A stretch of 41,417 nt of DNA, taken from Bacteroidia bacterium. Lineage in GTDB: Bacteria; Bacteroidota; Bacteroidia; CAILMK01; JBBDIG01. The position numbers and the translations under genes were made by a program. Location of the stretch: NCBI GenBank assembly GCA_040880525.1, contig JBBDIG010000015.1, positions 1 to 41,417 on the forward strand, read 5' to 3'. Shown here piece after piece: positions 5,274 to 36,260 of this stretch. The notes under the pieces are model-generated. The model was not told where the DNA came from, ran no database searches, and worked only from the letters and a program-made list of their open reading frames with translations. Each line of letters begins with the position of its first letter. Position 1 is the stretch's first letter.

Positions 5274-8108
5274 ATGATTGCCTTCAAATCCCTGCCCTTA
5301 CTCATTTTATTTATTGGTATTGCCTTTCAAACTTTTTCCCAGGATAAAAATCATGAGCGCCTCCCTGTGAAAATATGGGAGCGTGAATTTTCTGAGGGCA
5401 CCTACGAGGGACCGAGTGAGGTTATGGATGTGGCTGGTGATTCTGCACGAAATTACTATTATACCGGCTATTTCACCAGTCCGAACGGAGGATACGATAT
5501 GGCCCTCGTCAAAACCGGAGGGGACGGAAGTGTGATTTGGAAAAAGCGGATACCGGGTGAAGGAATCCACTGGAATAGCGGGCTAAAAATACAGATAGGA
5601 GCGCAGGGAAATATCTATGTGTTGGGAATGTTGTTTTTGAATAACGGCAACCATGTCACTTTGTTGAAATTTAATAATTCAGGAGAATTGATTTGGAAGA
5701 CGCCCATCGAAAAAATGCGAACATACAGACCCTTAGGGTTGCGTGAGTGGAACATGCCCCAACATTTTAGGGAGGGCGACCATCATTATGTAATTTATGA
5801 AATGAATCCGAGAGATACGGTTGAAGAATTGAATTTGGTCAAAATAAATGATTCAGGAAATGTAATAAACAAAAGCAATATAGCACTCACCCCTGACCCA
5901 TTGTATCCTCGAATATATTTTGATGAAGTAACCTTCCATGACGGCTTTTTCAGTACAATAATGCGTTCAATAAATCCATGGCCGAATAGACAAAGAGATC
6001 ATTTGTTATTTTTTGATCTTAACGGTGTAATATTCATGACAAAAGAATACGCCACACCGTTGCCACCGATGCAACCCGAGATAATTGGTAGCACCGATTC
6101 ATCTGTCTCAATTCGCTACACAGATGGTGCAACCGGTGATGTGGCAGGAATGGAGATAGGAAGGTCTGGTAATACGGCTGCCGCCATAAACTTAAGTCTT
6201 ACAAATTATGATGACTTTTCAAGCAAGTTTGTGCGTCTCGATCATTATCATTATTCAGTTTTATATAATCTAATCCAACAACGCTATTATTTAGTAAAAT
6301 GGGCTGACAGCCTAAAGATTGAGGATGAATTTCCATTGCCACTTCCAGAAAAGCCGCGTGGCATTCTGGCAGATGAGGACGCAGGGATATTTCTGATATA
6401 CACTACGGACAGTGGGCTTACGGTCTATAACTATGATACAAATGGCAGCCTACGTTGGGTCAACTATTTTGAAGGAAGTATATGGGAACTGGATGTATGG
6501 GACGCTAAGATTGTTGGGGACCATTTGGTTTTTTGCATAAATCCTTTGCATAGATGGTCAGCAAGTGCCCAGGTACCTTTGGAGAACTTCCGGATTGTTC
6601 GCTTTAATAAAGACAATGGAGTAGTTGCTGAATATAAATATGGGGAAAGTGCCGGTTCCATCACTCAATTACACAAGCAGGAGATTGACGCTAAGGGGAA
6701 TGTGATCGTACTATGTACGAATTCCCTAACTCGGAATTATTCGGAATTTGCCTTATACAAAGTAGGAGCCGATGGAAATTTAAAATGGAAGAAAACCGGG
6801 CCGGAGATTTCAGGTTACTACTTCCAATACATTTGTGGTTTTTATGTGGTGGAGGGCGATAACATTCATATTTTTCACCGGGACGAGTTTAATGTGTTTC
6901 ATCGAATAATATTTGCCCCTGATGGCTCATTGAAGGAAGACAAGACGCTTCAGGCCTTCTCTTCTCCTACGGCCTTTCATCAATTCTATAAAGGAAGTAA
7001 TGGATCATCATTGGGTATAGCAATTAAAGTTTATGACAGTCTTGGTGGTCCTGATGTGAGCATAGCACTTTTCGCAAACGATACAAGAATTATTGCCGAG
7101 GAAAAAATTCCATTGTACGCAAGCGTGATGGATATAAGCCATGATAAAAGAAATAACGCATTTCAAGTAGTTTTGAATTTTCCCGAAGAAACATCTGATC
7201 AGATTAGGGAGGAACTATGGCAGATACACAGTAATGGGCATATTGAAAAAAAGCTTTTGGGCTATTATCCCAGCCACTTATCATGGATAAAAAAAGTTGC
7301 CTTTGACAGGGATGGAAGTTTTAGTATAATACGTGATTTCCGTTCGCCAAATACTTCTGATCCTGAAATTCATAAGTATACGGCTGATGGTACTTTGATA
7401 AAAAAGCTAAGTTTAGATGTGTTGTCAGGCTCAATGAGGTTTGCAGCTCCAGGGACAAGATTTAGTATAGACAAGGCAGGAAACTACCTGATTAGTGGTA
7501 ATGTTACCAATCCATTACTATCCGAACATCGCGCTGTATTTTATAAATTTGATGGTGATGGCAACCTGAAGTGGTCCCATCCATCCAGTGCCATTGCACA
7601 GATTTGGTATGTAAACCATGATAATGATGTGTTTCTTTATCTTTATGAAGATGGCTTGAATGATTCATTGCTGAAGATAGATGAATATGGCCAAATATTA
7701 TGGAGAAAAGCTACTGATAACAATGGGCTGCAACAATTCATGGCTTTTGACAAAGGCTTTTTCTATGAGACGTGGGGATATTTTGGCAAAACCGTTCTTA
7801 GGAAATATCAGGATCCGGGCATCAACGCTGTTGAGCTGCCGTCACCGCTATTTTTCTTTGAGGCATATCCCAACCCAACTTCTGGTGATGTGACCTTCAG
7901 CTACCAGATTCATGAGCCATCGGATGCCAGTTTGTATTTCTACGACTTACAAGGGCGGTTGTTAACGTCTTTTGAGCTTGGCAACAAGGTGGCCGGCATC
8001 CACCATTTCCGATATAACTTCACACATGAATATGCCCAGGGCTTATACCTGGTAAGGCTGGTGGCCGGAGAGCAATCGGGTTCAGTAAAAGTGGTGCTGA
8101 GCAATTAA
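5274..8108 (+). CDS. Secreted protein with T9SS type A sorting domain, beta-propeller-like repeats
   Basis: A signal peptide is visible at 1-23 (LPLLILFIGIAFQTFSQ). The body, residues about 30-850, repeats units of the form GxYDMALVKTGGDGSVIWKK, LLKFNNSGELIWKTPI, YKVGADGNLKWKKTG and YKFDGDGNLKWSHPS, like SBBP or PQQ-type beta-propeller blades. From about 860, EAYPNPTSGDVTF through LYFYDLQGRLL to GLYLVRLVAGEQSGSVKVVLS is a textbook Por_Secre_tail domain, so the protein should be exported by the Sec pathway and anchored or released through T9SS. No catalytic motif is recognisable. 944 residues. The gene is lone, just downstream of the chimeric relic, and more AT-rich than pyrD-rarA. Confidence 0.9.
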   Translation: MIAFKSLPLLILFIGIAFQTFSQDKNHERLPVKIWEREFSEGTYEGPSEVMDVAGDSARNYYYTGYFTSPNGGYDMALVKTGGDGSVIWKKRIPGEGIHWNSGLKIQIGAQGNIYVLGMLFLNNGNHVTLLKFNNSGELIWKTPIEKMRTYRPLGLREWNMPQHFREGDHHYVIYEMNPRDTVEELNLVKINDSGNVINKSNIALTPDPLYPRIYFDEVTFHDGFFSTIMRSINPWPNRQRDHLLFFDLNGVIFMTKEYATPLPPMQPEIIGSTDSSVSIRYTDGATGDVAGMEIGRSGNTAAAINLSLTNYDDFSSKFVRLDHYHYSVLYNLIQQRYYLVKWADSLKIEDEFPLPLPEKPRGILADEDAGIFLIYTTDSGLTVYNYDTNGSLRWVNYFEGSIWELDVWDAKIVGDHLVFCINPLHRWSASAQVPLENFRIVRFNKDNGVVAEYKYGESAGSITQLHKQEIDAKGNVIVLCTNSLTRNYSEFALYKVGADGNLKWKKTGPEISGYYFQYICGFYVVEGDNIHIFHRDEFNVFHRIIFAPDGSLKEDKTLQAFSSPTAFHQFYKGSNGSSLGIAIKVYDSLGGPDVSIALFANDTRIIAEEKIPLYASVMDISHDKRNNAFQVVLNFPEETSDQIREELWQIHSNGHIEKKLLGYYPSHLSWIKKVAFDRDGSFSIIRDFRSPNTSDPEIHKYTADGTLIKKLSLDVLSGSMRFAAPGTRFSIDKAGNYLISGNVTNPLLSEHRAVFYKFDGDGNLKWSHPSSAIAQIWYVNHDNDVFLYLYEDGLNDSLLKIDEYGQILWRKATDNNGLQQFMAFDKGFFYETWGYFGKTVLRKYQDPGINAVELPSPLFFFEAYPNPTSGDVTFSYQIHEPSDASLYFYDLQGRLLTSFELGNKVAGIHHFRYNFTHEYAQGLYLVRLVAGEQSGSVKVVLSN

Positions 8109-8292
8109 AGGTTTTGGGTATGAACCTAATGGTGAGTGGCAATTTCTGAAAGGAACAGTATATCTTCTAAAATGAAGATTGGGTTTGCCTTTCAATATTT
8201 GTATTTTAAAATCCCGATATTACCTTGAAAACATTTTTGCCAAATATAAAAGCGAAATAACCCTGTAGAATCCCATGAAAGAAAACCTGCAA

Positions 8293-8772
8293 TTAGTTAT
8301 TGTTAACTTTAAAAAACATAAGAACCAGTAAAGGGTACAGGAAAAAATTGAAAAGCAATAGTCCTATCACCATCATTCCCAGAGTTATTATCCAATCGAT
8401 GTTATTCGGCCTGGTTAGCATATCTATTATGGTCAGCAGTGTAAATATAAATAATAGTAATCCAATCAGCAATGCGGTTATGGCCAAATAGCCAAAAGAT
8501 TGGGAAATTGAAATCTCAGCCTCTTTTCCGGTTTCTGTTTCTATATAATCCAGGATTCCCGGAAACGCAGAGGATTGTCTGTTTTGGGAATATTTCATCA
8601 AAGGCGGGTAGGTTTTCAGCCAAAAGAAAAACAGGAAAATAGCAAATGGCATTGTCCACCAAATTTCCATAATGGAGCTGTCTATTGTGGAGATATAAAG
8701 AAATCCGGATACATAACCCAAAAGACACAGGAAATATAGCCCGCCCATTACCAGTAATGATTTTAACTTCAT
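8293..8772 (-). CDS. Hypothetical integral membrane protein, four predicted TM segments
   Basis: I do not recognise the family. 159 residues with hydrophobic segments at about 4-28, 38-52, 92-116 and 124-152, and a hydrophilic loop between the second and third (KTYPPLMKYSQNRQ to TETGKEAEIS). It may be a small inner-membrane protein. Its start region has a degraded homologue at 5079-5145, which suggests the family was once present in two copies. It converges with the T9SS gene, 184 bases apart. Confidence 0.7.
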   Translation of the reverse strand: MKLKSLLVMGGLYFLCLLGYVSGFLYISTIDSSIMEIWWTMPFAIFLFFFWLKTYPPLMKYSQNRQSSAFPGILDYIETETGKEAEISISQSFGYLAITALLIGLLLFIFTLLTIIDMLTRPNNIDWIITLGMMVIGLLLFNFFLYPLLVLMFFKVNNN

Positions 8773-8799
8773 GGGATTTTTTTCGCGAATATTACAATT

Positions 8800-8819
8800 C
8801 TTCGGGCAGAAGCCCGAAG
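8800..8819. repeat. REP-like hairpin CTTCGGGC-AGAA-GCCCGAAG
   Basis: Perfect 8-base arms with a 4-base AGAA loop, 28 bases upstream of the 8772 start codon on that gene's 5' side. It is not followed by a T-run on either strand, so it is unlikely to be a terminator. The rest of 8820-8945 holds no supportable gene. Confidence 0.55.
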
Positions 8820-8948
8820 CTACATAGCCGCCCGGTATCAGGTTTCAGCTTAATGATGGAACCGTCCCGCACTATGAAACGAGTGAAGGATGCAGAAGTG
8901 GCCATAGGATTGGAAGTGATTTTAGGTAAGGCGAAGATGCGTAAACAC

Positions 8949-8977
8949 AAAAAAACCCCGGAGAATCTTCTCCGGGG
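8949..8977 (-). terminator. Strong intrinsic terminator, minus strand
   Basis: CCCCGGAGAA (8956-8965) pairs perfectly with TTCTCCGGGG (8968-8977). On the minus strand it is followed at once by seven T (8955-8949). On the plus strand no T-run follows. No protein gene lies upstream on this strand, so it ends the candidate RNA described next. Confidence 0.8.
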
Positions 8978-9138
8978 CCTCTCAACCAAAAAGCTTTAAT
9001 AACCACTTAACCAAAAACAACTATAAAAAATATATAATTCTTACAACCAGCGGGATTGTCCCTTCCGGATCAAAATATCAGGACATTTTGATCCCGGCTC
9101 GTACTGCTTGTTTCTAATTTAGTTCTTTCCTTTGATGT
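8949..9138 (-). ncRNA. Candidate orphan small RNA, about 190 nt
   Basis: On the minus strand a promoter box TATCTTTG (9150-9143, TAnnTTTG) lies about 165 bases before the strong terminator at 8977-8949. Between them there is no start codon followed by an open frame of useful length (the only ATG is followed by TCC TGA), but there is a second perfect hairpin, GGATCAAAAT with ATTTTGATCC, separated by 8 bases (about 9086-9059). Sequence between the hairpins is AT-rich and unstructured, as in trans-acting RNAs. I cannot match it to 6S, tmRNA, RNase P or SRP RNA. No clear -33 TTG was seen, which lowers confidence. Confidence 0.45.
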
Positions 9139-9142
9139 AACG

Positions 9143-9150
9143 CAAAGATA
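9143..9150 (-). promoter_or_regulatory. Bacteroidota -7 box for the candidate small RNA
   Basis: TATCTTTG on the minus strand fits TAnnTTTG. Transcription would start near 9138. No good -33 TTG was found 17-21 bases upstream. Confidence 0.4.
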
Positions 9151-9226
9151 ATATTGCCTCTCAGTACTTATCGGGTGAGAAATGGCGAATACCTTACATA
9201 CGTATTAAATTCCGAAAAAAAGAAAA

Positions 9227-9757
9227 GTGAACTTGATTTTCAGGGAAATATCCTTTGGCTCTGAAGCATACCCGCAAACGGTGAAGCTCCGGGAAGAGGT
9301 ACTGAGAAAGCCTTTGGGCCTAGAATTCAGCCGGGAGCAGCTTGATTCAGAAGCCGGGGATTATCATTTGTGCGTGATGGCGGAGCAGGGCCCACTGGCC
9401 TGCCTGGTGCTGACGCCTCACGCTGAAGGCTGTTTAAGAATGCGACAGGTAGCCGTTTCGCCCGACCACCAGAAGAACGGGATCGGTCGTTTGCTGGTGG
9501 CTTTTTCCGAAGGATTTGCCATTGAGAAATATTGCCGGGAAATGGTTCTCCATGCCAGAGAGGAAGCCATTCCTTTCTATAAAAAACTCGGATACAAAGT
9601 ATATGACGAGCCTTTTAAAGAATTGGAAATTCCGCACAGGAAAATGAAGAAAGTACTTCCCGCTCCGCGAATCTTCCGGAATTCTTACAAAAAGGGCATG
9701 GGAGGAAATTATGAAAAAAGCAATTTTGAGGACTGGGAAACCAGGCCTGGGAAATAA
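9227..9757 (+). CDS. GNAT family N-acetyltransferase
   Basis: Transfers an acetyl group from acetyl-CoA to an amine; substrate unknown. RMRQVAVSPDHQKNGIGRLL at about 71-90 is motif A, with the pyrophosphate-binding QKNGIG at 82-87; LHAREEAIPFYKKLGYK at about 108-124 is motif B. The start is GTG at 9227 (GTG AAC TTG ATT); no in-frame ATG lies nearby upstream. The tail after KMKKV, about 35 residues, is an extension beyond the usual fold and is basic. The gene is 62 bases upstream of the MMPL exporter, which however has its own promoter box. Confidence 0.85.
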   Translation: MNLIFREISFGSEAYPQTVKLREEVLRKPLGLEFSREQLDSEAGDYHLCVMAEQGPLACLVLTPHAEGCLRMRQVAVSPDHQKNGIGRLLVAFSEGFAIEKYCREMVLHAREEAIPFYKKLGYKVYDEPFKELEIPHRKMKKVLPAPRIFRNSYKKGMGGNYEKSNFEDWETRPGK

Positions 9758-9795
9758 GCTAAAATTCTTTACTAAAACGCACGTCTTAATTTTAG

Positions 9796-9803
9796 TAATT
9801 TTG
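9796..9803 (+). promoter_or_regulatory. Bacteroidota -7 box for the MMPL exporter
   Basis: TAATTTTG matches TAnnTTTG and lies 16 bases before the ATG at 9820, inside the gap after the acetyltransferase. It would give a leader of roughly ten bases. Confidence 0.5.
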
Positions 9804-9819
9804 CAGGAAACTTTGGCGG

Positions 9820-12147
9820 ATGTGGACTAAGGTCTCTCATTTTATTTTAAGATATCGGTTTCTTCTGCTTGGCCTTATTGCCATAGTTACCCTCGTGATG
9901 GGCTACTATGCCCTGCAGGTTAAAATGTCCTACGATTTCATCCAGGTGACGCCCTCGGATGATCCGGATTTTAAAACGTATCAAAAGTTCAAAGATCAAT
10001 TTGGCGAGGACGGAAGTTCTATGTTCGTGGGATTTCAGGCCGCACAGCTTTGGAACCTGCGCTTCTTTCAGGACTATTATGACGTTACCAAAAAAGTAGA
10101 AGCCCATCCCGGCATCACTGAAGTACTGACGCTCACGAATCTCCAGAACCTGAAAAAGGACAGGGCAAGAAGAAGCCTCTATCTGGATCCGGTAATTGAC
10201 AAAAGGCCCCAAACCCAGACTGGACTGGATAGCCTCAAAGAAGAGATTCTTAGCCTGCCTTTTTACAGGGATCTGCTCTATAATCCTGAAACCCATACCG
10301 TAATGATGCTGGTGCGGTTTGATAAGGATACGCTTGCATCAAAATCGCGGGGTGACCTCATCGCTCATATTGAAGATGAAATGGACAGCTTTGGCGAGCT
10401 ATACAATCTGGAAATACATTACAGCGGAATGCCCCTGATCCGCACCAAGATCACGGAGAAAGTAGCCAATGAAATGAAGCTGTTTTCCACCATTTCCATT
10501 GTCATCACAGCCCTCATACTTTTGTTTTTCTTTCGTTCCTTTTCGGCAATGGTTTTCCCGCTGGTGGTCATTATCATCATCATGGTTTGGACCCTCGGAA
10601 CCATAAGCCTGTTTGGGTATAAGCTTAATATTCTCTCCGGTCTCCTCCCTCCACTGATCGTCATCATCGGGGTGCCTAATTTTATTTATTTTCTTAATAA
10701 ATATCACCACGAGTTTAAAAAGCACGGAAATAAAGTCCTGGCCATAAACCGAATGGTGGAGAAAATTGGGGTCATCACTTTTTTGACAAACTGCACCACA
10801 GCCATTGGGTTCGGTGTGCTTTTCCTGACGGAAAGTCCTATCCTCAAGGAGTTCGGACTTGTAGCCGCCATAAATATTATGGCGACATTCTTCATATCGG
10901 TAATCACCATTCCGGTAATATTCAGCCTGCTTCCGGAGCCCTCCAGCCGACATACCAATTATCTTAACAGCCGGTATATGAAATACGCGCTGGACACTAT
11001 TGATAATTGGGTCCATAACCACCGCAAATGGGTGTATCTGGTTACAGGGTTAGTGATTATCCTCGGTATCGTAGGTGTAGCGCGCCTGAAGGTGATTGGC
11101 TATATGCTGGACGATATTCCGCACAAGGACAAGCTTTATAGCGACCTCATGTTTTTCGAGAAGCATTTTGAAGGCGTGATGCCCTTTGAAATAATTGTGG
11201 ATACAAAACAAAAGAACGGATTGCTGAGGCCGGAGAACCTGCAAAAGCTGGATCAGTTGCAGGATTCCATTGAGTCGTACCCTGAATTTGCCCGGCCCAT
11301 GTCAGTGGTGGAGGTGATAAAATTTACGAAGCAAGCATTTTATGATGGCCGGGAAAGCCAATACAGCCTGCCAACAGCGAGGGAAAGGAACTTTCTGCTG
11401 CCTTACCTTACCGGGATAAAAGGTGATAATCCGCTCATGCAAACCATGATTGATACCAACCGGCAGGTAGCGCGCATTTCAGCTAAAATGGAGGATGTAG
11501 GGTCGCTGAAGCTGGCAGAAATAAAAGAACGCCTGGAAAGGAACATTACCGAAATATTTGGAGATACGGATTTTCATACGGACATAACGGGAGTGAGTGT
11601 GGTGTTTATGAAGAACAATAAATACCTGATCGAGAGCCTTGTGTCCAGCCTTATCCTGGCTTTTTTGATAGTTTCCTGCATCCTGGGGCTGCTCTTTATG
11701 CAATGGCGAATGATCCTGATCTCCATCATCCCCAACTTTATACCGCTGCTGGTGACAGCCGGATTAATGGGTTTCTTTGACATCGCGCTGAAGCCATCCA
11801 CAGTTTTGGTGTTCAGTATTGCCTTCGGAATATCGGTGGATGATGCATTGCACTTCCTGGCTAAATACCGGCAGGAACTGAATAATCACAACTGGGATGT
11901 GCCTAAAACTGTTTCAGTGGCGCTCGGAGAAACAGGCTTCAGCATGATATACACATCACTCATTCTGTTCTGTGGTTTCTCCATTTTTGATGCATCGTCC
12001 TTTGGCGGCACGGCCATGCTGGGTGTGCTTACCTCCATTACTTTGCTCATTGCAATGCTTACCAACCTGGTGATCCTGCCTTCATTGCTCCTGACGTTTG
12101 ATACCAAATTCAGCAAGAAAAAAATAGCATTGCCAGACCCTGAATAG
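9820..12147 (+). CDS. MMPL/RND family transporter (sterol-sensing-domain type)
   Basis: A proton-driven exporter of the HpnN or MmpL kind, in the inner membrane; such proteins move lipids or other hydrophobic molecules. 775 residues with the RND plan twice over: TM1 (about 10-30), a periplasmic domain (40-215), then a block of five helices from about 225 (STISIVITALILLFFFRSF, LNILSGLLPPLIVIIGVPNFIYFLNKY) to about 375; the second half repeats this from TM7 near 407, with ISIIPNFIPLLVTAGLMGFF and VLVFSIAFGISVDDALHFL. The conserved acidic pair in GISVDDALHF sits where proton relay residues lie. No membrane-fusion or outer-membrane partner is next to it. Confidence 0.9.
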   Translation: MWTKVSHFILRYRFLLLGLIAIVTLVMGYYALQVKMSYDFIQVTPSDDPDFKTYQKFKDQFGEDGSSMFVGFQAAQLWNLRFFQDYYDVTKKVEAHPGITEVLTLTNLQNLKKDRARRSLYLDPVIDKRPQTQTGLDSLKEEILSLPFYRDLLYNPETHTVMMLVRFDKDTLASKSRGDLIAHIEDEMDSFGELYNLEIHYSGMPLIRTKITEKVANEMKLFSTISIVITALILLFFFRSFSAMVFPLVVIIIIMVWTLGTISLFGYKLNILSGLLPPLIVIIGVPNFIYFLNKYHHEFKKHGNKVLAINRMVEKIGVITFLTNCTTAIGFGVLFLTESPILKEFGLVAAINIMATFFISVITIPVIFSLLPEPSSRHTNYLNSRYMKYALDTIDNWVHNHRKWVYLVTGLVIILGIVGVARLKVIGYMLDDIPHKDKLYSDLMFFEKHFEGVMPFEIIVDTKQKNGLLRPENLQKLDQLQDSIESYPEFARPMSVVEVIKFTKQAFYDGRESQYSLPTARERNFLLPYLTGIKGDNPLMQTMIDTNRQVARISAKMEDVGSLKLAEIKERLERNITEIFGDTDFHTDITGVSVVFMKNNKYLIESLVSSLILAFLIVSCILGLLFMQWRMILISIIPNFIPLLVTAGLMGFFDIALKPSTVLVFSIAFGISVDDALHFLAKYRQELNNHNWDVPKTVSVALGETGFSMIYTSLILFCGFSIFDASSFGGTAMLGVLTSITLLIAMLTNLVILPSLLLTFDTKFSKKKIALPDPE

Positions 12148-13456: not shown

Positions 13457-14083
13457 TTATTTCTGAAGGCTTTGGTCATGCACTTTGTATTGGCCATATT
13501 CCACTTTCAGTTTATTTATTTCGTTGGCAGCTTCAATGTTTATGCTGTCTTTCAGCGCGGTCTTGCGCCTGTTCAGGCGGTTCCATAGTGTATCTATCTG
13601 TGTCCAATCATCTGACGAATACTGCTCCTTGTTCATTTTTACTTCCCGCACAAACTGGTGGTAAGTTTCCACCAAATTCCCGGAGGTTATGGCTTGGGGT
13701 TCATCTTCAGGCCCTTCCAGCATACGCTCTAGTTTGTCAGGGCCAGTCTCATCTCCAAATCTGGTTTCGTATTGCCGCCTGAAATTAAAATAGCGGGTAT
13801 TATTTCTCTCTACTTCAGCTATCTGCTCATCACTCATCAAATGACGTTTATTTTCCACACCTGCCCGCATGATCTCATACTCATTTCGAATGGCTTCCAT
13901 TTCTTCCAAAGTAAATTCCTTTTCCGCTGTTTCAACGCTATCCATAAATGAGGCATAGGCATCAACATATACTACAACATCATCCTCCTGCGGTGTGCTG
14001 TTGCAACCTGCAGGAACTACCAGCACACACATCATGGCAATGAGTCCGGAAGTAATCCTTTTATTATTATTGTTAGCCAGCAT
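13457..14083 (-). CDS. Helical lipoprotein of unknown function
   Basis: 208 residues. A lipobox VPAGC puts the acylated cysteine at 27. The mature part is almost entirely predicted helix rich in Glu, Lys and Arg (AEKEFTLEEMEAIRNEYEIM, WTQIDTLWNRLNRRKTALKD), as in periplasmic coiled or helical-bundle proteins. I do not recognise a named domain. It sits between the holin/YtxH genes and the lmo0937-like gene on the same strand and may belong to the same module. Confidence 0.75.
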   Translation of the reverse strand: MLANNNNKRITSGLIAMMCVLVVPAGCNSTPQEDDVVVYVDAYASFMDSVETAEKEFTLEEMEAIRNEYEIMRAGVENKRHLMSDEQIAEVERNNTRYFNFRRQYETRFGDETGPDKLERMLEGPEDEPQAITSGNLVETYHQFVREVKMNKEQYSSDDWTQIDTLWNRLNRRKTALKDSINIEAANEINKLKVEYGQYKVHDQSLQK

Positions 14084-25141: not shown

Positions 25142-27676
25142 ATGAGTTTAAATGACTACCGGGAAAAGCGCGATTTCTCTAAAACCAGTGAACCGGAAGC
25201 CGGCAAAAAATCAGATTCCGAATCCATTTTCGTTGTGCAGCGCCATGATGCCAGAAACCTGCACTATGACTTACGGCTGGAGATGGAGGGCGTGCTGAAA
25301 AGCTGGGCAATTCCCAAAGGTCCTTCTATGAATCCTGCTGACAAACGCCTGGCTATGCAAACTGAAGATCATCCTTTCGGCTACAAAGACTTTGAAGGGG
25401 AAATACCAAAAGGTGAATATGGCGCTGGTTCGGTTGAAATATGGGACGCAGGAAAACTCACGGCTCCCGGCAACACCAATCCTGATAAAGCCGCGAAACA
25501 ACTCCTGAACGGCCTGCACAATGGCCACCTGAAATTTGAATTGCACGGGGAAAAATTACAGGGTGGTTTCGCTTTAATTAAATTAAAGGATGAAAAACAA
25601 AAGAATGCCTGGCTGCTGATTAAGGAAAATGATAAATTTGCCACAGACGAGCCTTACAACAGCGAAACGCACATTAAGCCCGGCTCCAAAATTCCACCTA
25701 AAGATATAGAGCCGTCACCCCTTACGGCAGAGCAGGTGCAGGATTTGCTGAAGCCTATTCCTGCCGGAGCCAAAAAGGCTAACATACCTGAAGTGTTCCA
25801 GCCTATGCTTGCCAGCCTCATTGACCAACCTTTTTCCGACAAGGACTGGCTTTTTGAAATTAAATGGGACGGCTACCGGGCACTTGCATTTGTAGATAAA
25901 GGCACGGCAAATCTCTATTCGCGAAATAAATTATTATTCAAAAAATATATCCCGTTAAATAAAGAGTTGGAAAGGCTGCAGGCAAGTGCCGTAATTGATG
26001 GGGAAATAGTAGTGGTGGATGAAAATGGCCATGCGGATTTTCAAAAAATGCAGCACTACAGCCGGAAGTATGAAGATCGGTTGCAATACCAGGTGTTTGA
26101 TTTAATTTATTTAAATGGCCATAATTTAATAAACGTGCCTCTGCTGGAACGCAAAAAACTTTTACAACGACTGGTCACGGGATTTAATCAAATTATTTAT
26201 AGCGATCATATTATAGAAAAAGGCGAAGAATTTTACGCTCTTGCCGAAAGCCATGAACTGGAGGGAATTATTGGAAAGCTGGGCGCTGGCCCTTACCGGC
26301 CGGGCAAGCGCAGCCCGGATTGGGTGAAAATGAAAATACTAAAAACGCAGGAAGCTGTAGTAGGTGGATATACGTTACCAAAGAGCGGACGACAGTATTT
26401 TGGTTCGTTGCTGCTGGGGGTTTATGACGGGAAAAAGTTCCGTTTTATTGGCAGCAGTGGCGGAGGATTCGACCAGAAAATGCTGAAGGAGGTATATGGT
26501 GCTATGCAACCTCTGCGCATTGAAAATAAGCCATTTGCCAATAAAGTTCCGGTAGCAAAAAATGCGGTGTGGGTAAAGCCTGAACTGGTGTGCGAAGTTG
26601 CGTTTTCAGAATTCACGAATGATGGGATAATGCGCCACCCGGTGTTCCGGGGGATGCGGGATGACAAAAACCCACGGGAAATTGTAAGAGAAATACCGCA
26701 GCCCGGCAGTGTTGTAAAACAAGAGGCAAAGCCGGTTCAAAACCAAAATTCTAAAGCCGGAGCAGCGAAAAACAAAAGTAAAATTATAGTTGGGAAACAG
26801 GCTGTCTCCATTAGCAATACGAACAAGGTTTATTGGCCGGAAGAAGGCTATACTAAGGGAAACCTGGTGGAATATTATCATAAAATGGCGGAGTATATTG
26901 TCCCTTATTTAAAAGACCGTCCGCAGTCGCTGCACCGCCATCCTGACGGCATAAATGGGGAGGCCTTTTACCAAAAAGATATGGGCACGCTCCCACCCTC
27001 CTGGATAGCACGATACAAGGTGCCCAGAAACTCTGCAGATGCGGACATTAACTACATGCTGGTGCAGGATGCCGCTTCGCTGCTGTGGATGGTAAACCTG
27101 GGATGCATTGAGATCAATCCCTGGAGTTCACGCGTGCAGCAGCCGGATCATCCTGATTACGTAGTGATAGACATTGATCCTGCACAAAACACGTTTGAGG
27201 AGGTAATTGAAGTGGCACTGGCCGTGAAGGAGGTTTTGGATGAAGCGGCCATAGCAGGATATCCGAAAACATCCGGGGCCACAGGAATGCATATTTACAT
27301 ACCGCTTGGCGCGAAGCATACCTATGAGCAGGGAAAGAATTTTGCGCATTTGATTGCCTACCTGACCCACAGGAAACTTCCAAAACTCACCAGCATAGCC
27401 CGGATGACGAAACTCCGGACAAAGCAGGTGTACCTTGATTATCTGCAAAACAACAAGGGCCAAACCCTCGCTTCCGTATACAGTGTTCGCCCGCGACCAG
27501 GCGCCACCGTTTCCACCCCGCTGAAGTGGGAGGAGGTAAAGAGCGGCCTGCATCCTTCACAGTTCACCATGAAAAACCTGCCCGCCCGTATTGAAAAAAC
27601 CGGAGACCTTTTTAAGGGCGCCATCGAAAAAGGAATAGACCTGGCCAAAACGCTGGCAAGACTGGAAAAGAAATAA
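25142..27676 (+). CDS. ligD: Multifunctional non-homologous end-joining DNA ligase LigD (PE-LIG-POL)
   Basis: LigD repairs double-strand breaks with Ku. Order here: 3'-phosphoesterase (about 1-190; FVVQRHDARNLHYDLRLEME, GEYGAGSVEIWDAG), ATP-dependent ligase (about 215-520; catalytic lysine in KWDGYR at 241-246, then VIDGEIVV and EGIIGKLG), and primase-polymerase (about 550-844; ISNTNKVYWPEEGYTKG, VIDIDPAQN with the metal-binding DxD near 674). A poorly conserved Lys/Gln-rich linker (about 530-548) joins the last two. 844 residues, full length. No Ku gene is in the window. The 269 bases upstream hold no gene that I can support. Confidence 0.95.
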   Translation: MSLNDYREKRDFSKTSEPEAGKKSDSESIFVVQRHDARNLHYDLRLEMEGVLKSWAIPKGPSMNPADKRLAMQTEDHPFGYKDFEGEIPKGEYGAGSVEIWDAGKLTAPGNTNPDKAAKQLLNGLHNGHLKFELHGEKLQGGFALIKLKDEKQKNAWLLIKENDKFATDEPYNSETHIKPGSKIPPKDIEPSPLTAEQVQDLLKPIPAGAKKANIPEVFQPMLASLIDQPFSDKDWLFEIKWDGYRALAFVDKGTANLYSRNKLLFKKYIPLNKELERLQASAVIDGEIVVVDENGHADFQKMQHYSRKYEDRLQYQVFDLIYLNGHNLINVPLLERKKLLQRLVTGFNQIIYSDHIIEKGEEFYALAESHELEGIIGKLGAGPYRPGKRSPDWVKMKILKTQEAVVGGYTLPKSGRQYFGSLLLGVYDGKKFRFIGSSGGGFDQKMLKEVYGAMQPLRIENKPFANKVPVAKNAVWVKPELVCEVAFSEFTNDGIMRHPVFRGMRDDKNPREIVREIPQPGSVVKQEAKPVQNQNSKAGAAKNKSKIIVGKQAVSISNTNKVYWPEEGYTKGNLVEYYHKMAEYIVPYLKDRPQSLHRHPDGINGEAFYQKDMGTLPPSWIARYKVPRNSADADINYMLVQDAASLLWMVNLGCIEINPWSSRVQQPDHPDYVVIDIDPAQNTFEEVIEVALAVKEVLDEAAIAGYPKTSGATGMHIYIPLGAKHTYEQGKNFAHLIAYLTHRKLPKLTSIARMTKLRTKQVYLDYLQNNKGQTLASVYSVRPRPGATVSTPLKWEEVKSGLHPSQFTMKNLPARIEKTGDLFKGAIEKGIDLAKTLARLEKK

Positions 27677-35451: not shown

Positions 35452-36260
35452 ATGAAATGCACGATCAGAAGCCTGTTGCTATTGCTTCTCCTCATTTTCC
35501 TCACTCCAGACCTCGCTCATACCCAGACCTGCTCAGGCACGTACACCGTAAGTGCCAGCCAGCCAAGATGCGTAAACTCATCCATTTCTTTTATTATTAC
35601 AGACACCTCCTCCAGGTCCTATATCTACACCTGGAAGTGGTGGGATGGCAGCAGCCCAAATACCAGCACCAGTAAATGGCAAGGCATGGTGGCGGTTGTG
35701 CCGATACAATCCTGTTGAATGATATTGTGGTGCATCCTACGCCAACAGCCGGATTTGACTTTTTTCAGGCTGATAAACCTCCGCATGGCCAAATGATCTT
35801 TACCAATACCTCAAGCGGAGCCGATAAATACCTGTGGCATTTTGGGGACGGGGACAGCACAGATGTAGAGCATCCCTACCACAACTATGGGCGGCTGGGG
35901 GAATACCTTGTGAAGCTACGGGCAATAACGAATGAAGGTTGTGAGCATGAAGTACACCGGATCGTGCCCCTCGTTGACCTCTTCAATTTCCATATTCCCA
36001 CAGCCTTCAGCCCTAACGAAGATGGCTACAACGAAGAATTTGCACCTGTGCTGCTGAACCCGGATGATCAATTTGCCTGGAAGATCTATAACCGGTGGGG
36101 CGAAGTAGTATTTGAAAGTACCACAAGCCAGACCTGGGATGGCCGCAACCAGGCAGGAAACCTCGCCCCTGATGGCGTCTACGTGTATGTACTCACCATT
36201 ATCAGCTCTGCGGATGGCTGGAAAACCAGCGCTACCGGCCAGGTGACACTTGTGAGGTAG
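35452..36260 (+). pseudogene. Frameshifted secreted protein with PKD and CHU_C (T9SS type B) domains
   Basis: The first frame, 35452-35718, has a signal peptide (LLLLLLIFLTPDLAHTQ) and a beginning PKD-like region (IYTWKWWDGSSPNTSTS). At about 35690 the reading shifts; the second frame continues with GGGCADTILLNDIVVHPTPT, a PKD repeat (YLWHFGDGDSTDVEHPYHNY) and the C-terminal domain (IPTAFSPNEDGYNEEFAPVL, WKIYNRWGEVVFESTTSQTW, GVYVYVLTI) used for type B T9SS sorting and gliding motility proteins. The usual PKD strand between WDG and CADTI is also missing, so a small deletion probably accompanied the shift. Not expressed as one protein unless frameshifting rescues it. Confidence 0.8.

Follow-up and report, generated by a model that had tools for sequence, protein, structure and literature searches.

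The window analysed here, a stretch of 41,417 bases, contains a gap flanked by a plus-strand gene at 9227-9757, which diverges from the features discussed below and encodes a GNAT-family acetyltransferase (Pfam Acetyltransf_10, E 8e-14), and by a minus-strand ORF at 8772-8293. On its minus strand this gap holds, in order, a TATCTTTG box, an inverted repeat, and a G-C-rich hairpin followed by seven T, which together form the unit considered here; its copy number in its own genome is one. The called genes at 9227-9757 and 9820-12147 both lie on the plus strand, the next called minus-strand gene is found at 13457-14083, and in the ORF list of the 41,417-base window no called minus-strand gene ends at the terminator at 8983-8949. 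Called genes were picked by hand from the ORF list, and leave 22% of the window uncovered. The first-pass annotation had described the locus as a minus-strand box with two hairpins and a strong terminator, and was right in both coordinates and description; its placement of the DNA in Bacteroidota agrees with a Por secretion-tail domain that scores above its cut-off, as well as a second one just below its own. Elsewhere in the window, at 25142-27676, a LigD-type protein carries phosphoesterase, ligase and primase-polymerase domains (Pfam).

One end of the unit is formed by an intrinsic terminator on the minus strand at 8949-8983, where hairpin scan and folding give a hairpin of 15 pairs, rich in G-C at its core, and then seven T. 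The core, CCCCGGAGAAGATTCTCCGGGG, spans 8977-8956, and TTTTTTT follows at 8955-8949. When a strong terminator was required to have 8 or more perfect pairs, 5 or more of them G-C, and a minimum of 6 T within 8 positions, both strands of the 41,417-base window gave one site, at 8977-8949, while 20 dinucleotide shuffles gave one in total; the hairpin with seven T that had been marked at 8949-8977 is indeed the only site of such strength in the window. A looser scan of 7500-11000 returned three terminator-like sites against 3.9 in shuffles, and hence no excess. Look-alike hairpins with a T run in other genomes of the class were found no more than 60 nt past the stop of a same-strand ORF in six of the seven places inspected (the seventh, L083, is ambiguous for that strand), which supports a terminator role for the hairpin at 8983-8949.

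At the other end of the unit, the minus strand carries at 9143-9150 a putative -7 promoter box of the Bacteroidota type, TATCTTTG, with CG directly after it, assigned by the position of the motif relative to the inferred start; the longer form of the box, TATCTTTGCG, spans 9150-9141. A TAnnTTTG box had been claimed about 170 bases upstream of the terminator, and the distance from the box at 9150-9143 to the terminator core is 165 nt. Plain TAnnTTTG alone is weak evidence, as it occurs 38 times in the window against 37.5 in shuffles, and when the gap is shuffled, one turns up on the minus strand within its first 240 nt with P 0.15; for TAnnTTTGC within the first 200 nt, the corresponding value is P 0.033. 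The extended form TAnnTTTGC[A/G], with eight sites in the window against 5.6 in shuffles (sd 2.2), is not above chance in number. All eight of these sites lie outside called genes: six stand 15-66 nt upstream of a gene or tRNA called on their own strand, the seventh comes ahead of an 88-aa ORF (35452-35718), and the eighth is the box at 9150-9141. On the strength of this placement outside genes, the box at 9150-9143 is taken as a working promoter, and promoters of this genome seem to be marked by the extended motif. Inspection by eye showed no clear -33 TTG element upstream of TATCTTTG, and sigma-70-like promoters in 7500-11000 numbered seven against 7.5 in shuffles, with no excess. In Flavobacterium psychrophilum, the sigma-A box lies at -12 to -5 relative to the start (PMC9723704), and the same spacing would put the predicted start of the unit near 9138. 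The box and the first bases of the unit are matched over 25-26 bases at 96% in L003 (1501-1526), another genome of the class, where the stretch falls in the promoter region of a 300-aa ORF; this match probably reflects a shared promoter consensus.

Between these two ends, the predicted minus-strand transcript, 8949-9138, would be non-coding, about 190 nt long and 38% GC, its start being placed by the position of the box. The earlier claim that the unit has no ORF holds, since its sole ATG frame has two codons and its longest GTG/TTG frame, of 19 codons, continues across the terminator and past the transcript end; the longest ATT frame has 25 codons. The sequence 8949-9139 folds at -61.7 kcal/mol, with a z of -4.66 (0 of 300 shuffles as good) and of -4.59 in a second computation. 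With the terminator removed, the fold is only moderately better than its shuffles (z -2.6 to -2.7; two to three of 300 as good), while z is -0.17 for the opposite strand without terminator, -1.9 for the 5' half by itself and -0.3 for the A+T-rich middle. Thus, in these computed folds, a good part of the signal comes from the terminator and the rest from predicted long-range pairing. The long-range stem, within 9005-9123 on the minus strand, consists of 15 pairs between 9123-9108 and 9020-9005 (mean pair probability 0.81), and a weaker outer stem joins 9136-9130 to 8991-8985 (0.56). Inside the long-range stem, besides smaller hairpins, the central hairpin at 9065-9096, with 13 pairs and a loop of 4, is predicted with a mean pair probability of 0.93; its arms GGATCAAAAT/ATTTTGATCC form 10 perfect pairs within 9094-9067, and correspond to the perfect 10-base hairpin noticed earlier between box and terminator. 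The computed fold as a whole is a multi-branched junction whose unpaired stretches are short, the one on its 5' side amounting to about 5 nt. A reading of the central palindrome as a repeat family was rejected, given that the dyad GATCAAAA-N4..14-TTTTGATC occurs in only two places in the genome, the central hairpin included; the exact 28 bases of the palindrome are absent from the viral contigs searched. A duplex scan for mRNA targets, covering 32 start regions of the window, gave none that was convincing (best z -2.6 of 32).

The unit had been called uncharacterised, and Rfam likewise yields no family match. At the gathering threshold, the whole window returns one tRNA and nothing else, and a search of 601 bases centred on the locus, with E values as high as 10, gives 14 rows, all at chance level; the three minus-strand rows whose alignments were inspected (Spot 42, NsiR1 and VrrA) lean mainly on the terminator. 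DNA searches gave matches in two of 39 other relatives and 12 of 294 other class genomes, with at most two candidates scored per genome among the matches listed for the 294-genome set, and none of the matches is longer than 61 bases. The two matches among the 39 relatives, on inspection, are one within argS and one in a promoter region, and those in G115 and G153 of the 294-genome set are terminators. In the argS match, 8965-8999 on the minus strand of the unit aligns in frame with the final codons of that gene in a single other genome (35 bases, 86%). A covariance model of the whole unit (R1) found 8 places in seven of 294 other genomes, 7 of these places being inspected, and a model of the body without the terminator (R2) found only the unit's own genome among 395 class genomes. 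Each model was built from one sequence given twice, and the reach of the R2 search was limited by strict filters and by at most seven candidates scored per genome among the matches listed. Plasmid and phage searches with the unit gave no match. The order is represented by 12 genomes, the other 11 of which belong to other families. As the body has no relatives in the genomes searched, there is no covariation and no sign of selection to be read from it. The unit, like the 159-aa ORF downstream of it, appears to be lineage-specific as far as searched, and this lack of relatives neither supports nor refutes function.

The surroundings of the neighbouring genes in other genomes were also compared. 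Five close MMPL orthologues are available in the same order, and four were checked with 3 kb upstream, L008 being left out since it has 74 bases upstream. On the minus strand upstream, none of the four shows a box and then a terminator; two of them have a terminator without a preceding box, and the adjacent plus-strand ORFs at the four loci differ in size. In two of these genomes, G002 and G005, the GNAT relative sits on another contig. Four further MMPL relatives, 32-43% identical and two of them with about 250 bases upstream, were covered by the R2 search. The GNAT gene has 22 matches outside its own genome, of which 21 were judged and L057 was excluded as its locus is cut by a contig end. 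No minus-strand terminator of at least 7 pairs was present within 900 nt upstream at any of the 21, and a box was seen upstream of four GNAT matches. Across 30 loci that surround MMPL or GNAT relatives, R2 had no match at E up to 1.

On the downstream side, the minus-strand ORF at 8293-8772 is an orphan of 159 aa, hydrophobic and, by reading, a membrane protein. It looks coding: its gene-like codon score of 0.21 compares with 0.15-0.39 for 16 genes of the window and with -0.16 (sd 0.07) for its own shuffles. No relatives were found in 394 other class genomes, Pfam, NCBIfam or plasmids, apart from one chance-level PHROG row. The ORF starts 176 nt past the terminator, and it was passed over when the first-pass annotation stated that the hairpin has no protein gene to serve, a statement that stands insofar as no called minus-strand gene ends there. 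The stretch between terminator and ORF contains, at 8800-8819, a perfect 8-bp palindrome, CTTCGGGC-AGAA-GCCCGAAG, without a T run and the only such site in the window. The minus strand also has a 37-codon ATG frame at 8792-8905, whose end is separated by 19 bases from where the 159-aa ORF begins, and this frame could be a small upstream gene or a product of chance.

Only if the unit were a leader would the 159-aa ORF be part of it, and it is this arrangement that most directly competes with a free-standing RNA gene. The box would then be the promoter of the ORF, the terminator would limit read-through, and the short RNA would be an aborted 5' leader produced by attenuation. The coding appearance of the ORF fits such a scheme, as does the fact that the sole exact minus-strand TAnnTTTG box from the ORF start to 9226 is TATCTTTG. 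The intervening 8948-8773 holds one box with one mismatch, of a kind that numbers 549 in the window, exact boxes included; several called genes also have no exact box close upstream, and hence the absence of one before the 159-aa ORF says little. A weak local hairpin that uses the left arm of the terminator forms in folds cut before the terminator is complete, but at about -4.5 kcal/mol, and with -11.3 kcal/mol for the best upstream partner of the left arm, these alternatives compare with -23.8 kcal/mol for the terminator, so that no strong anti-terminator is visible. The 176-nt gap that follows the terminator also speaks against a leader, and we consider this arrangement unlikely.

Two other explanations concern the unit itself. 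It could be non-functional, with promoter and terminator left behind by gene loss or rearrangement and yielding a spurious transcript or none, in keeping with the observation that, among the genomes searched, neither the box-terminator unit nor the 159-aa ORF was found outside this one. The 35-base, 86% match to argS could be read as a gene relic along these lines, but the 3' end of the genome's own argS is unlike the unit by eye, and short matches of a similar kind turn up in two of 39 and 12 of 294 genomes; the argS match is accordingly most likely due to chance. Box and terminator, moreover, are intact, with extensive predicted pairing between them, and a mere remnant is to our mind improbable. 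The unit might instead encode a divergent 6S RNA of its own lineage, a roughly 190-nt RNA that would bind the RNA polymerase holoenzyme, which would account for its length, its paired ends and its own promoter. The 6S RNA of this genome is otherwise unaccounted for, since RF01685 and RF00013 give no 6S gene in it. Nevertheless, RF01685 found a match in one of 39 other genomes, below cut-off, and in none of 14 controls, and RF00013 found one in five of the 14 controls, Bacteroides not among them; by these controls both models are insensitive in the phylum, and the missing match means little. Two points weigh against a 6S identity: instead of a large open central bubble, the predicted fold has a multi-branched junction in which some 5 nt on the 5' side are unpaired, and the body model R2 has no match in the 11 same-order genomes. 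A 6S function seems very improbable.

Among known RNAs, the closest likeness is to the intergenic small RNAs (sRNAs) of Bacteroides thetaiotaomicron. In that species, 49 high-confidence intergenic sRNAs with start and terminator are recorded, 27 of the 49 being strain-specific; they have 35% GC, 76% have a canonical promoter, and nine of 11 candidates tested were seen on Northern blots (PMC7366714). The unit resembles them in having its own predicted start and an intrinsic terminator, and in being short, low in GC and narrowly distributed. No Rfam model of a Bacteroides sRNA reaches threshold on the unit, the BTnc049 and rteR rows being at chance level. The predicted RNA is longer than MasB, which is about 100 nt (PMC10994844). 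The unit is also similar in length to the independent transcripts of F. psychrophilum (Rfp RNAs; median 176 bp, with a strong fold predicted for 18 of 45), and is likewise non-coding and preceded by a sigma-A box (PMC9723704). The Rfp RNAs were, however, detected by RNA-seq whereas the unit is known here from sequence alone, and the two are likened by description (PMC9723704). With 6S RNA, the unit shares length (RF00013) and paired ends, but it matches neither RF00013 nor RF01685, and its predicted fold lacks a large open central bubble. Spot 42 (RF00021), the best sub-threshold Rfam row, has in common with it a U-rich stretch and then a G-C-rich terminator; unlike a true member, the unit scores 23.9 bits against a gathering score of 80, with 46 model positions skipped and mainly the 3' part aligned.

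Taken with these comparisons, we favour the reading that the unit is probably an independently transcribed, lineage-specific intergenic sRNA gene, non-coding and with promoter and terminator of its own. The small-RNA profile proposed in the first-pass annotation stands as far as an independent non-coding unit goes, with box, terminator, fold and no ORF, and with transcription as an inferred property; it is weakened to the extent that a leader role for the 159-aa ORF is still to be set beside it. For such an sRNA gene, RNA polymerase with the housekeeping sigma factor would start near 9138 from the TATCTTTG box, and transcription would halt at 8949 at the intrinsic terminator. The product would be a non-coding transcript some 190 nt long, in which the 5' and 3' parts are computed to pair around the 13-pair hairpin. 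This RNA may then act in trans, with an exposed stretch pairing with one or a few mRNAs. By analogy with Bacteroides, where the target of GibS is bound by pairing at its translation initiation region (PMC7366714) and that of MasB at its 5' region (PMC10994844), trans action by mRNA pairing is most likely. The transcription of the unit, its exact ends, its trans action and its targets are all inferred from the DNA.

As it stands, the unit is a credible, if ordinary, new candidate among the small regulatory RNAs, which are common. There is a slim chance that it is instead the founder of a new structured RNA class, or an unrecognised 6S-type RNA, of an order in which the 6S-Flavo model finds nothing, its body being held by long-range pairing of the ends. 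The unit leaves current understanding unchanged. If transcribed, it would add a lineage-restricted sRNA to a phylum whose mapped sets, of those compared here, are from Bacteroides and Flavobacterium, and it suggests that sRNA genes of this genome can be picked out from sequence alone where a gap free of genes holds both TAnnTTTGC[A/G] and a strong terminator.
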